This document shows positions 1 to 5,604 of a DNA stretch of 64,000 nt, one piece after another. The number at the start of each line of letters is the position of its first letter. Position 1 is the stretch's first letter. The stretch comes from Ignavibacteriales bacterium. Lineage in GTDB: Bacteria > Bacteroidota > Ignavibacteria > UBA10030. The notes under the pieces are model-generated. The model was not told where the DNA came from, made no database searches, and worked only from the letters and a program-made list of their open reading frames with translations. The translations under genes and the position numbers were made by a program. Location of the stretch: positions 62,001-126,000 of the forward strand of contig JAPLFQ010000012.1 in NCBI GenBank assembly GCA_026390595.1. Reading direction: 5' to 3'.

Positions 1-7
1 CGTCTCA

Positions 8-78
8 AGTCATCGGGGCCGGACGCTGAGAGCAGACCCTCCGAACCTGAACTGGGTAATACCAGCGAAGGAAAACGG
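8..78 (+). promoter_or_regulatory. TPP (THI-box) riboswitch aptamer
   Basis: The conserved THI-box blocks occur in order: GGGG at 15-18, CTGAGA at 26-31, GAACCTGA at 43-50, then CTGG-gtaata-CCAG (52-65) followed by CGAAGGAA. These are the thiamine-pyrophosphate-binding elements of the TPP riboswitch; the stem before CTGAGA is unusually short. The 5' arm of P1 cannot be fully assigned and may begin before the window. The aptamer lies directly before a terminator hairpin (101-145) and the TonB receptor gene. Bases 70-78 can pair with 102-110, which forms the 5' half of the terminator, so an antiterminator is available when the ligand is absent. Prediction: TPP represses the downstream operon by premature termination. 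Confidence 0.93.
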
Positions 79-100
79 GAAACTGGTTTCTTCTACGGCG

Positions 101-145
101 GCCGTTTTCCATTCTTGCTCTCGAATGGAAAATGGCTTTTTTTTT
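101..145 (+). terminator. Riboswitch-controlled intrinsic terminator
   Basis: A 14-bp stem (101-114 with 123-136, one G-U pair) with an 8-nt loop is followed by nine T residues (137-145). It ends 12 nt before the TonB receptor start codon. Its 5' arm (102-110) is also complementary over 9 bases to 70-78 at the 3' edge of the TPP aptamer, the usual arrangement of a transcriptional OFF switch. Confidence 0.9.
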
Positions 146-157
146 GCGGGGACTCGT

Positions 158-2605
158 ATGCAATACCGAATGGTTCTGGTTGCACTGGCATTGGCACATG
201 CGTGTGCCATTGGACAGGAGACTGGAACAATTCAAGGCTTGGTGCGCGATGCGGAAACGCTGAGACCGCTCGAGGCAGCGAACATTCTGCTTCAGGGAAC
301 AAATGCGGGCGTGAGCGCTGGCAAGGACGGTTCTTTTCGGCTGCCTCGAATCCCGGCCGGTTCCTACACCGTGAGAGTCAGCTTCATCGGGTATTCGCCG
401 CAAACACTGCTGGTCGCGGTGCGCCAGGGCGAAACATCAACTCTTGACGTGTCGCTCGTCCAAACGGTACTCCCGGGGCAATCGATTGTGGTTTCGGCAA
501 CACGCGCCCGGGAGCGCTCCAGCCCGGTTGCTTTTTCAACGTTGAGCCCCCGTGATCTCACGGAGCGCTATTCGACTCAGGATATTCCGTTGCTTCTTTC
601 CGAACTCCCATCCACAACCTTCTACTCGGAAAGCGGAAACGGTATCGGGTACAACTACCTCAGCATCCGCGGCTTCGATCAGCGACGCATCTCAGTGATG
701 GTCAATGGCATTCCGCAGAATGATCCGGAAGATCATGACGTGTACTGGCTGGATTTCCCCGACCTTGCCGCGAACCTCCAGGATATCCAGGTCCAACGCG
801 GAGCAGGCAGCGCGTTCTACGGTCCCCCCGCCATCGGAGGATCGGTCAACCTCATCACCTCGAGTTACTCAAGAACACCCGGCATTTCTGTCTACACGGG
901 ATTTGGGTCATACAATACACGGAGATACTCTGTCTCGGTCAATTCGGGGCTCGTGGGGGAGAAATACCAGTTCTACGGCCGGCTGTCACGCATCCTGAGC
1001 GACGGATACCGTATGAACTCCTGGACAGATTTTTCAAGCTATTTTCTGGGGGCGACCCGGTACGACGAAACGATGACGACACAGTTGAACTTCTACGGCG
1101 GACCGGTCGCAGATCATCTTGCATACTATGGCATAGCCCGGGAGGACGCGTACTCTTCGGACTCACAAAAGAGGCGGCAGAATCCGATTCGGCGCGCGGA
1201 AGAAATCGAGAATTTCAGCCAGCCACACTATGAACTTCTGCACGAATGGCGCCCCTCGGAACACATCACGGTGAACAACGCCCTGTTTCTCGTCACCGGT
1301 GACGGCTTCTTTGACTACGACGGATCGTGGGCTCCATATTCGTATTTTCGCATTACTCCGAGAAACGGATTCGCGGTTTCCGGTGATCCTGACGAATTGT
1401 ACATCCCCAACGCCCTGATACGCGCCTGGGTGGGGAATAGACAATACGGCTGGCTGCCGCGAGCGAGCATCCGGCATGACGGCGGAGAGGTGACAGTCGG
1501 TGCCGAGTTCCGTATTCACCGGTCAACGCACTGGGGCGCACTCCGCTGGGGAGAAAGCCTTCCGGCGGGGATCACTCCTGACTATCACTACTATGAGTAT
1601 CAGGGTGGAAAGGACATGATTTCTCTGTATGTCCACGAACTCTACGAGCTTCGTCCCGATCTGACTCTGCAGCTCGACTTGCAGTATGCCGACAGCCGGT
1701 ACCGTTTTCACGATGAAAAATATCTGAATACGGATTTTTCAGTTCCGTATCGGTTCCTCAATCCGCGCGCTGGACTGAACTACAATATCAGCGAGAAGTT
1801 GAATATCTACACGCAGATCTCCCGAACTTCGCGGGAGCCGCGGCTGAAGAACCTGTACGATGCTGCGGAGGCGAGTACGCCGCAATCCTGGGGCCCGGTC
1901 ACTCCGCAATTCAGGACTCAGGCGTCCGGCGCTTATGATTTTTCGAGTCCCCTCGTCAGACCGGAAGCTCTTGTCGATGTCGAACTCGGAAGCGGGTACA
2001 CTGCGGAACAACTCCACGTGACGGCGAGCCTCTTCTATATGAGTTTCGACGATGAGATCATCAAGCAGGGTCAGCTCGATCGGTTTGGAATCCCTGTCAC
2101 CGGGAATGCAGACCGGACCCTTCACCAGGGAATTGAACTGACTGCCGTGACGAGGTTCGTGGAAGGGTTGGAGGTACAGGCGAACGCTACGTGGAGCAGG
2201 AATCGGTTGGAGAAGTACTCTGTGTTCAACGGTTCAACGCGTGTTTCTCTTGATGGAAACAACATCGCCGGATTTCCCGACTTCCTTGCGAACGCAAGAG
2301 CGACGTACCGAACCGGTGGGCTTGTCGCGTCTCTTTCGATACAGCACGTCGGGGAATTCTATTCTGACAACTTCCAAAGCTCCTCGAAGGGTAGAACAGA
2401 TCCTGGTCGTACAATCAGCGCATACACCGTTGTGCACGCGTCGCTTACCTACAGGCTCAGGCTCGTACCGGTCGTGCAGTCCGTTGAAATAAGCGCCCAG
2501 GCGAACAATCTTTTCAACAGGATGTATGCGGCCAATGGTGAAGGAGGGGAGTTCTATCCCGCGGCTGAACGCAACTACTTTGCCTCTCTGAAATTTGATT
2601 TGTAA
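158..2605 (+). CDS. TonB-dependent receptor, predicted thiamine/thiamine-phosphate uptake
   Basis: Outer-membrane active transporter of about 815 residues. A signal peptide (1-20) is followed by a carboxypeptidase-regulatory-like beta-sandwich (about 24-105), a TonB-box-like stretch (IVVSATR, 110-116), a plug domain (about 122-236, with SIRGF and DDRISV-like MVNGIPQND signatures) and a C-terminal 22-strand-type barrel ending in an aromatic-rich strand. I start at ATG 158, which gives a clean signal peptide and has a GGGG ribosome site before it; ATG 125 lies inside the terminator hairpin. The gene directly follows a TPP riboswitch and precedes thiN, so by context the substrate is thiamine or a phosphate ester. 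Substrate is inference; the receptor family is clear. Confidence 0.9.
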   Translation: MQYRMVLVALALAHACAIGQETGTIQGLVRDAETLRPLEAANILLQGTNAGVSAGKDGSFRLPRIPAGSYTVRVSFIGYSPQTLLVAVRQGETSTLDVSLVQTVLPGQSIVVSATRARERSSPVAFSTLSPRDLTERYSTQDIPLLLSELPSTTFYSESGNGIGYNYLSIRGFDQRRISVMVNGIPQNDPEDHDVYWLDFPDLAANLQDIQVQRGAGSAFYGPPAIGGSVNLITSSYSRTPGISVYTGFGSYNTRRYSVSVNSGLVGEKYQFYGRLSRILSDGYRMNSWTDFSSYFLGATRYDETMTTQLNFYGGPVADHLAYYGIAREDAYSSDSQKRRQNPIRRAEEIENFSQPHYELLHEWRPSEHITVNNALFLVTGDGFFDYDGSWAPYSYFRITPRNGFAVSGDPDELYIPNALIRAWVGNRQYGWLPRASIRHDGGEVTVGAEFRIHRSTHWGALRWGESLPAGITPDYHYYEYQGGKDMISLYVHELYELRPDLTLQLDLQYADSRYRFHDEKYLNTDFSVPYRFLNPRAGLNYNISEKLNIYTQISRTSREPRLKNLYDAAEASTPQSWGPVTPQFRTQASGAYDFSSPLVRPEALVDVELGSGYTAEQLHVTASLFYMSFDDEIIKQGQLDRFGIPVTGNADRTLHQGIELTAVTRFVEGLEVQANATWSRNRLEKYSVFNGSTRVSLDGNNIAGFPDFLANARATYRTGGLVASLSIQHVGEFYSDNFQSSSKGRTDPGRTISAYTVVHASLTYRLRLVPVVQSVEISAQANNLFNRMYAANGEGGEFYPAAERNYFASLKFDL

Positions 2606-2650
2606 TTTGAAAACGCAGGGAAATACCGTCGCTCACAATCTGATGGATGT

Positions 2651-3277
2651 ATGGCGAAACGTGCCCTCGTAATTGCATACGGCGAACCGCCGAAGAAGCA
2701 ACGCTTGCTAAGCCTCGCCCGGGAGTCGAATATCGTCATATGTGCAGACGGAGGGGCCAACATTGCATTGAAAGCAGGAATTACGCCCGACGTGATCGTC
2801 GGGGATCTGGATTCAATCCACGCCGAAGCGCTCGTGAAATTCCGCAAGGTGCCAACCTTCGAGGACCGGGACGATCAGACAACCGACCTGGAAAAGGCTA
2901 TTCTCTGGGCCATCAATGCGAAATCTGACCACATGACAGTTGTTGGGGCGACAGGCAAGAGAGTAGACCATTCTGTTGGAAACCTGGGTGTGCTGGCCAA
3001 GTACTACCCGGACGCTATCATCCGTTTCGTTGATGACCTCGGAGAGATTTCGTATGTTGGCCGCGATCTGACGTTTGACGCAAAAAAAGGGGATGTCATT
3101 TCTCTCATACCGCTGAGTCGGTGTGAGGGGATCGTCACGAAAGGACTCAGGTATTCGCTGGATGGCGAAACGCTTGAGATCGGAGTTCGTGAAGGAACCA
3201 GCAATGTCGTCGACCATTCCCCGGTGAGCATCAAAGTCAAAAAAGGGCACCTGCTCCTTTTTGAACTCTTCTCCTGA
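2651..3277 (+). CDS. thiN: Thiamine pyrophosphokinase
   Basis: Transfers pyrophosphate from ATP to thiamine to give thiamine pyrophosphate in the cytoplasm. The 208-residue protein has the family's usual length and motifs: ADGGAN (32-37), GDLDSI (51-56), DQTTDLEKA (75-83) and a TGKRVDH block near residue 100, followed by the small beta-rich thiamine-binding C-terminal domain. It lies 45 nt after the TonB receptor and 15 nt before the sodium symporter, all behind one TPP riboswitch, so the operon appears to import thiamine and trap it as the coenzyme whose level is sensed. Confidence 0.95.
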   Translation: MAKRALVIAYGEPPKKQRLLSLARESNIVICADGGANIALKAGITPDVIVGDLDSIHAEALVKFRKVPTFEDRDDQTTDLEKAILWAINAKSDHMTVVGATGKRVDHSVGNLGVLAKYYPDAIIRFVDDLGEISYVGRDLTFDAKKGDVISLIPLSRCEGIVTKGLRYSLDGETLEIGVREGTSNVVDHSPVSIKVKKGHLLLFELFS

Positions 3278-3292
3278 ACTCAGCCATCCCAG

Positions 3293-4732
3293 ATGGTCCA
3301 CTTCGGCCTCATCGACACGCTCCTCATACTTCTCTATTTTCTTGCCGTCGTCTTCGTCGGATTCCGGGCCGCTCGTCGTTCAAGAAACGAGACTGAGGAT
3401 TTCTTTCTCGCCGGGCGAACACTCACACTGCCGATGTTTGTAGCCACGCTGGTCTCGACCTGGTATGGCGGAATACTCGGTGTGGGGGAATTTTCATACA
3501 AGTACGGGATCTCGAACTGGGTCGTCTTCGGTGCTCCGTATTACGTCTTCGCTCTTCTGTTTGCCTTGCTGCTTGCGAAACGAATCCGGGCAACAAATCA
3601 CCTGACAATCCCCGACCAACTTGAAGCCTCGTACGACAAGAGAACCGCGCTCCTCGGCGGTGTGCTCACCTTCTTCCTGATTACACCGGCGGCGTATGTG
3701 TTGATGGTTGGCATCCTGATCCAGCTCGTCTTCGGCCTGGACATGGTTACGAGCGTCACTGTCACGACCACGCTCACGATCTGTTATCTCTACTGGGGTG
3801 GATTCAGATCTGACGTCTGGGCAAATGCACTTGAGTTCGTGTTGATGTTCCTTGGATTCGCGATGATATTGCCGTTCGCGTATTTCAAGCTCGGGGGATG
3901 GGAATACATCGTGACACATGTTCCTCCGCTTCACCTCACGTGGCACGGGGGAAACAGCTGGCAGTTCATTGCTGTCTGGTTCTTCATCGCTCTCTGGACG
4001 CTCGTGGATCCCGCTTTCCATCAGCGCTGCTATGCCGCGAAAGACGGGAAGACCGCACAACGGGGAATACTCATTTCCATACCGTTCTGGTTCTTCTTTG
4101 ATTTCATGACGAGCATGGCCGGCCTCTACGCCCGTGCCGCTCTCCCCGACTTGCCCAATCCTGCCTTCTCCTACCCGATGTTGGCCGAGTTGACCTTGCC
4201 GCCGATTGCAAAAGGGCTCTTCTATATCGGGATGCTTGCGACAATCATGTCGACATTGAGCAGTCTCATGTTCATCTCTGCTTCGACGATCGGCCGGGAT
4301 ATCGTGGGTCGATCAGGAACAACCCGGAGCGCGGAATCACGTGACGCAATGGTTCGCAGGTGGACAAAGCTAGGACTGATCATATCAGCCGTCTTCTCGA
4401 TCATTCTGGCATTAATGGTACCATCTGTGGTCAAGATATGGTATGCGATAGGAACTGCAATTGTGCCCGGGCTGCTCGTCCCTCTTATGGCGAGCTATTT
4501 CAAGCCGCTCCGCATTCCGCCAAGGTATGGGTTCTGGGCAATGCTGCTGGGTTGGGGCACCTCGAGCGCCTGGCTCATCTGCGGGCAGTTTCACCTCGTC
4601 GATGGTGCGCCTTCGTACTGGTTGGGCATCGAGCCGATGTATCCCGGGCTGGCGCTATCGCTATCCGTGTGGTTTGTAGGTCGAAATTCATTTCGACCAC
4701 AGAATGGTTCTTCGACAGGTAATCTGCTGTAG
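3293..4732 (+). CDS. Sodium:solute symporter (SSS family), candidate thiamine transporter
   Basis: Inner-membrane carrier of 479 residues with about 13 hydrophobic segments. The TM8-like segment STLSSLMFISASTIGRD carries the Ser/Thr-rich pattern used for sodium coordination in this family, and the N-terminal FLAGR-type loop (ETEDFFLAGRTL) is typical. It is third in the TPP-riboswitch operon, 15 nt after thiN, so thiamine or a precursor is the likely substrate; in known Bacteroidetes thiamine operons the carrier is usually of another family (PnuT), which makes this assignment inference. The final codons (from 4679) coincide with a dispersed hairpin repeat, so the last 18 or so residues look like absorbed intergenic sequence. 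Confidence 0.85.
   Translation: MVHFGLIDTLLILLYFLAVVFVGFRAARRSRNETEDFFLAGRTLTLPMFVATLVSTWYGGILGVGEFSYKYGISNWVVFGAPYYVFALLFALLLAKRIRATNHLTIPDQLEASYDKRTALLGGVLTFFLITPAAYVLMVGILIQLVFGLDMVTSVTVTTTLTICYLYWGGFRSDVWANALEFVLMFLGFAMILPFAYFKLGGWEYIVTHVPPLHLTWHGGNSWQFIAVWFFIALWTLVDPAFHQRCYAAKDGKTAQRGILISIPFWFFFDFMTSMAGLYARAALPDLPNPAFSYPMLAELTLPPIAKGLFYIGMLATIMSTLSSLMFISASTIGRDIVGRSGTTRSAESRDAMVRRWTKLGLIISAVFSIILALMVPSVVKIWYAIGTAIVPGLLVPLMASYFKPLRIPPRYGFWAMLLGWGTSSAWLICGQFHLVDGAPSYWLGIEPMYPGLALSLSVWFVGRNSFRPQNGSSTGNLL
4679..4698. repeat. CGAAAT-tc-ATTTCG hairpin, copy within symporter 3' end
   Basis: Perfect 9-bp inverted repeat (GGTCGAAAT / ATTTCGACC) around a tc loop, located in the last coding stretch of the symporter. 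The same core hairpin with different outer base pairs occurs at 35784-35801 and 43291-43308. Confidence 0.75.
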
Positions 4733-4874: not shown

Positions 4875-5519
4875 CTACTTTCGTAGTAGTTTAAACGCGT
4901 GAGACCATGTGTTGGTCTTGAACCCATAGAGCACCCAGGCCATGGCCATCGGCTCGAGGAAACGTGAGCCTTCAATCCCCCCGATGTCAACCGTCGACCA
5001 CTTGAATGCCGTCAGGATGTCGGTCACTTTCTGCTTGGCTTTCTCGTCGTTGCCGCAGATGAACATGTCCGGCGGGCCGCCATCGAACTGCGGGTTAACC
5101 ATGAACGGAGCCCCGATGATGTTGAAAGCTTTTACGACGTGCGCCTCCGGAATCCACCGCTGAACCTGCTCGCCCCCCGAGTCCGTGTGCCCCAACGCGA
5201 GTTTGGGCGAAGAACCGCTGGAGAAATCGAGCGGGTTTGTAACATCGATGACGACCTTGTCGCTGAAGTTCTTCTTTTCTGACAACTTGATCGCATTTTC
5301 CGTTCCAGACCACGGGCTCGCCAACACAAGAAGCTCGCCGAAGGACGCCGCCTCTGCATAGGTCCCCGCGGATGCCTTCGGGCCTGTTTTTCCAACCCAG
5401 GTTTTGATCTTGTCCTGACCGGGATCCCTTGTCCCGATTTTCACATCATGGCCCAGATCGGCGAAGCCTTTTCCGAGTGCCTGACCGACGCCGCCGGAAC
5501 CAAGAATTCCGATTTTCAT
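4875..5519 (-). CDS. NADPH-dependent F420 reductase-like oxidoreductase
   Basis: A 214-residue Rossmann protein starting MKIGILGSGGVGQALGKGF, with the GxGxxG dinucleotide-binding loop at 6-12 followed by a TRDP segment that favours NADP. The rest fits the small F420-dependent NADP reductase-like family found in many bacteria that lack F420, where the physiological substrate is unknown. The start at 5519 is supported by AAAGGAC about 7 nt upstream; the reading frame is open further but lacks a family match there. It is a single gene between two terminators, convergent with the thiamine operon; no link to that operon is evident. Confidence 0.82.
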   Translation of the reverse strand: MKIGILGSGGVGQALGKGFADLGHDVKIGTRDPGQDKIKTWVGKTGPKASAGTYAEAASFGELLVLASPWSGTENAIKLSEKKNFSDKVVIDVTNPLDFSSGSSPKLALGHTDSGGEQVQRWIPEAHVVKAFNIIGAPFMVNPQFDGGPPDMFICGNDEKAKQKVTDILTAFKWSTVDIGGIEGSRFLEPMAMAWVLYGFKTNTWSHAFKLLRK

Positions 5520-5604
5520 TGAATGTCCTTTGAGTTTATGGAGATGATGAAGAGTGATGGAATCGTGTCTTCTCATGGAACACCACGATCACCGCAAAAG
5601 TTCG

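Follow-up and report, generated by a model that had tools for sequence, protein, structure and literature searches.

The counterpart in Bacteroides of the operon described here is formed by PnuT and OMthi (PMC5613172). The OMthi (BT2390) and pnuT-tnr3 genes of Bacteroides thetaiotaomicron resemble the locus studied here in having a TPP riboswitch, a TonB-dependent receptor, an inner-membrane carrier and a thiamine-phosphorylating enzyme (PMC5613172), but their carrier PnuT (PF04973) is unrelated to SSS-family symporters, and B. thetaiotaomicron makes thiamine as well. Between 2002 and 2014, thiV and SSSP/SSSQ were put forward as SSS candidates controlled by TPP riboswitches (PMC2211319, PMC4260697; see also PMC11452348); thiV was described as PanF-like (PMC2211319), and a 2019 survey counted ThiV among the B1 transporters (PMC6593275). 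These candidates share with the protein described below the PF00474 symporter family, the TPP riboswitch and the thiamine context, whereas our symporter is linked to thiN and a receptor instead of biosynthesis genes, has no Asp139, and its likely cargo is thiamine, not HMP. In the literature consulted (open-licence PubMed Central), SSS-type thiamine carriers are based on genome context, and whole-cell uptake was measured only for SAR11 HMP.

The most similar gene set is Cabys_3975-3977 of Caldithrix abyssi, which comprises a TPP riboswitch, a TonB receptor, an SSS protein and a thiamin pyrophosphokinase (PMC5317091, 2017). In that paper, this set lies behind the riboswitch in a thiamine auxotroph and was read as thiamine transport; it belongs to another phylum than ours, and the passage on it neither names the symporter as the inner-membrane carrier nor draws a comparison with PnuT (PMC5317091). 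A Calditrichia homologue in our set (L204, 44% identity) comes with riboswitch, receptor and thiN and falls into the same SSS clade. A preliminary description of our locus, made from the sequence, had implied that an SSS carrier in this role is a novel solution; that claim has to be withdrawn, given the C. abyssi gene set published in 2017 (PMC5317091) and the SSS candidates under TPP riboswitches, the first of which date from 2002. Novelty may lie in the scale, in the exclusion with PnuC and in the existence of a clade without the Asp reported for SAR11-type ThiV; neither the exclusion pattern nor the breadth of the clade was found in the literature consulted (open-licence PubMed Central).

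The operon and the probable thiamine need of its host

The window, that is, the whole stretch of 64,000 nucleotides that was analysed (contig JAPLFQ010000012.1 of an Ignavibacteriales bacterium, C12 below), carries three genes on one strand close to its start, separated by gaps of 45 and 15 nt.

158..2605, + strand: TonB-dependent outer-membrane receptor with a carboxypeptidase-regulatory-like N-terminus (PF00593, PF07715, PF13715)
2651..3277, + strand: thiN, thiamine pyrophosphokinase (TIGR01378, 162.5 bits against a cut-off of 76.4; PF04263, PF04265)
3293..4732, + strand: SSS-family symporter, candidate Na+:thiamine carrier (PF00474, 124.3 bits against a cut-off of 22.8)

The gaps bear out the close spacing of receptor, kinase and symporter behind the riboswitch noted in the preliminary description, and in several relatives the SSS start even overlaps the thiN end by 4 nt. 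The receptor ORF was taken from 158; an ATG at 125 falls inside the terminator described below. In Pfam the symporter matches PF00474 only and has no PF04973 domain. Just downstream, on the opposite strand (window 4875-5576), lies a gene resembling NADPH-dependent F420 reductase (PF03807; TIGR01915 64.5 bits, below the cut-off of 149.8). Judging by context, the TonB-dependent receptor would take thiamine across the outer membrane and the SSS protein would import it with Na+ across the inner membrane, and ThiN, a match to a curated family, would turn it into TPP.

Searches of the own genome, a draft of 95.7% completeness in which absent genes may be missed, found no ThiC, no ThiE or other member of the wider TMP-TENI family, no PnuC (PF04973) and no ThiB. 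Likewise, ThiC was not found in 29 of 30 relatives, nor ThiE/TMP-TENI at the cut-off in 27 of the 30, and most of the 30 agree on PnuC. Only partial matches to ThiG (PF05690) were obtained, scoring close to the cut-off or just at it and spanning roughly 40-120 of the 247 model positions; these were read as other barrel proteins rather than ThiG. As far as gene content can tell, the host, an Ignavibacteria-type bacterium, is a probable thiamine auxotroph, and we consider it very likely that the operon serves TPP-repressed thiamine salvage in such an auxotroph, through the receptor, import by the SSS protein and activation by ThiN.

Instead of thiamine, the symporter could carry one of its precursors or degradation products (HMP, thiazole); a role of this kind has been suggested for ThiV of SAR11, a likely HMP carrier (PMC11452348), and SSSP was proposed for thiamine or HMP by McRose et al. 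(PMC4260697). This is quite unlikely here, as the own genome lacks not only a detectable ThiC but also a ThiE/TMP-TENI protein to join the two halves, and in relatives the same slot is occupied by PnuC-family proteins, of which PnuT is reported as a thiamine carrier (PMC5613172). With no ThiE to join precursors, and with a partner enzyme, ThiN, that works on thiamine itself, intact thiamine is therefore the likely cargo.

A TPP riboswitch with terminator and antiterminator

The preliminary description had read a TPP aptamer at the window start and proposed a covariance search including upstream sequence. An Rfam scan of the window alone gave no match because the P1 5' strand falls outside the window, while with 22 upstream bases included RF00059 was matched over the full model (1-105) at 67.9 bits (E 1.6e-12; gathering cut-off 54.3). 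Thus the aptamer reading was confirmed, the cut-off being passed only with the upstream bases. The full aptamer occupies C12:61979-62090, or about -21 to 90 in the window, and is the sole TPP riboswitch found in the 4.77-Mb genome. Ahead of it, before the window begins, C12:61920-61948 resembles a promoter (TTGACA-17-TATATT).

1..90, + strand: TPP riboswitch aptamer (THI element), 3' part (RF00059, 67.9 bits, cut-off 54.3)
70..78, + strand: antiterminator 5' strand, GGAAAACGG, exact complement of 102-110, overlapping P1
74..80, + strand: P1 3' strand (AACGGGA), pairing with TTCCGTT at C12:61982-61988 as a 7-bp helix including one G.U; P1 is bracketed in the Rfam alignment
101..145, + strand: intrinsic terminator, 14-bp stem 101-114/123-136 with one G.U and nine Ts at 137-145
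102..110, + strand: antiterminator 3' strand, CCGTTTTCC, part of the terminator 5' arm, with the same logic in relatives

The 14-bp terminator with its nine Ts and the 9-bp antiterminator pairing 70-78 with 102-110, both part of the earlier reading, are all present at these positions; a complementary run of at least 9 occurred in 0.7% of shuffles. Because bases 74-78 are common to both, P1 and the antiterminator are mutually exclusive. When TPP is scarce, the P1 3' strand would pair with the terminator 5' arm, so that no terminator forms and the operon is transcribed; when TPP is bound, P1 would be locked and the terminator freed. In relatives from the same order and class, the aptamer is followed by a strong hairpin and a T-run, and in many cases an antiterminator of 8-13 bp again engages the 3' strand of P1. 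At least eight relatives show this logic (for example L033, L037, L040, L044, L052, L053, L054 and L060). The terminator, the P1-overlapping antiterminator and their recurrence support the transcriptional OFF switch suggested at the outset. TPP riboswitches operate at either level, and the level in Bacteroidetes was stated to be uncertain (PMC5613172), but it is quite unlikely that this one acts on translation with a merely incidental terminator-like hairpin, considering that the strong hairpin and nine Ts precede the receptor start codon and that the exact antiterminator overlaps P1, a pattern repeated in relatives.

Gene neighbourhood of the symporter homologues

Close SSS homologues, taken at E < 1e-60 and well apart from the next matches, are present in 72 of 247 genomes of the phylum. 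In 46 of the 60 phylum loci retrieved, thiN immediately precedes SSS, and 31 of these also have a receptor; once the own locus is added, a TPP element stands in front of every one of the 32, 23 of the elements being RF00059 matches that were themselves used to build model R1. Fourteen further loci show the thiN-SSS pair without a receptor or riboswitch in the fetched stretch, and one more is cut by the contig end. We also inspected the best 80 homologues in named public genomes, among them Ignavibacteria, Kryptonia, KSB1, Neomarinimicrobiota, Armatimonadota, Elusimicrobia, Zixibacteria and Calditrichia: 64 of the 80 adjoin thiN, and for 44 a TPP element was found ahead of the gene in the same orientation. 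Both surveys, with 46/60 phylum loci and 64/80 best public loci beside thiN, gave the opposite of the outcome that the preliminary description had named as counting against its reading, namely that homologues lie mostly outside thiamine contexts.

Of the 14 phylum loci without thiN, one holds a truncated gene; the other 13 make up a sister clade found in three families, whose SSS proteins are 33-43% identical and whose loci adjoin unrelated genes, for example RNase HII and GTP cyclohydrolase. In this sister clade (L065-L077), which does not lie beside thiN, the residues G60, W76, W235 and Q244 are not kept, and therefore its substrate may differ. We did not take the clade as proof of a non-thiamine function, since its host genomes are also without PnuC over the cut-off.

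Variants of the gene order were observed as well. In two Armatimonadota loci (L171:205-3187 and L178:82-3096), the TPP riboswitch is followed by a type II pseudopilin-like gene (FTLIELLVVIAIIAILAA), known from ORF and motif only, in place of the TonB receptor, and then by thiN and SSS. Genome G006 has a TPP motif ahead of a gene for a distant TonB-dependent receptor, with two TonB_C proteins next in line (L110:1550-5652); the thiN-SSS pair of this genome sits elsewhere (L078).

Exchange with PnuC-family carriers

We compared the SSS clade with PnuC over the cut-off across the 247 phylum genomes. Not one genome has both, 72 have SSS only, 102 PnuC only and 73 neither (Fisher 1.5e-21), and the comparison of SSS and PnuC within the own class gave 0/52 versus 7/9 (8e-8); these Fisher values take no account of common descent, and nicotinamide-riboside carriers fall within PF04973 too. 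The two states are found together within each of families f3, f6 and f26. In a genome of the same order (G093), in which no close SSS homologue was found, the last gene of the TPP-receptor-thiN operon encodes a PF04973 protein; a second genome (G262) matches G093 in this gene order, with a PF04973 protein behind TPP-receptor-thiN. Among the PnuC loci outside these two genomes, 2 of 20 lie beside a recognisable ThiN. Linkage to thiN and exclusion with PnuC together support the earlier proposal of a thiamine-uptake operon with the SSS protein as candidate carrier, for which thiamine is the presumed substrate.

Tree, fold and residues of the symporter

A tree made by a quick method, with some long branches, united all 75 SSS sequences in a single branch, separate from the remaining SSS proteins (SH-aLRT 99), within which the thiN-linked and unlinked sets each cluster. 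The AlphaFold model of the symporter (pLDDT 91.4) found human CHT1 as its best PDB match (VIA Z 42.1, rmsd 3.1 over 457 residues), followed by SiaT (35.8) and SGLT, as expected for the LeuT-type fold of SSS proteins, and the nearest PDB sequence by phmmer was also a choline transporter, SLC5 member 7 (7e-17). CHT1 (SLC5A7) is thus the nearest fold, and three of its aromatic positions, Trp62, Trp84 and Tyr91, align with W57, W76 and Y83; it differs in being eukaryotic, in its choline substrate and in having Trp254 where the symporter has the invariant Asp239. W62, Y91 and W254 of CHT1 line the choline site, and the symporter may have an organic-cation pocket. As choline transporters, the closest in both fold and sequence, carry an organic cation, we counted this resemblance in favour of thiamine as substrate.

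Ten residues are invariant in the 58 thiN-linked sequences (Y58, G59, G60, E66, W76, Y84, P132, D239, Q244 and R245). In an alignment, from which the SiaT residues were taken, S320 and T321 correspond to S342 and S343 of SiaT, the serines of its Na2 sodium site; S320 is kept in 55/58 and T321 or Ser in 58/58 thiN-linked sequences. A Proteus SSS gene tried as SiaT turned out not to be SiaT.

The signature of HMP/thiamin SSS proteins comprises, in SiaT numbering, Asp at position 139, Tyr at position 78, and at position 254 a Phe with His or a polar residue after it (PMC11452348). The column aligned with position 139 is V136, which is acidic in 0/58 thiN-linked sequences and mostly V/I/L, one sequence having Glu in the next column. 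Position 78 falls near the invariant W76, by offset only, and F242-H243 lies close to position 254 but is aligned 3-4 residues away. A plasmid tblastn search for a named ThiV returned only distant SSS proteins, at about 26% identity.

That the symporter carries an unrelated solute such as choline or pantothenate, and owes its place in the operon to chance, is highly improbable. Its best curated equivalog is PanF (TIGR02119, 105.8 bits, far below the cut-off of 328), a choline transporter is its best structural match and a sister clade occurs outside thiamine contexts, but the thiN linkage is kept over several phyla within one tree clade, SSS and PnuC exclude each other, and the own genome has no other candidate inner-membrane thiamine carrier among the families searched (PnuC, ThiB). 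The thiamine reading, with the symporter as candidate carrier, is on comparative grounds strongly supported. Going further, we lean towards a model in which this distinct SSS clade, nearest to choline transporters in fold and separate from SAR11-type ThiV, would act specifically as the Na+:thiamine symporter of a range of phyla (Bacteroidota, Calditrichota, Neomarinimicrobiota, Armatimonadota, Elusimicrobiota and others), and in which it and PnuC-family carriers have been swapped repeatedly in this phylum, at least twice within the same operon slot (G093 and G262), the two never sharing a genome. The exclusion with PnuC and the same-slot swap turn into a testable function prediction for several hundred homologues annotated merely as sodium:solute symporters and, if true, the B1 carrier of uncultivated auxotrophs would get a name.
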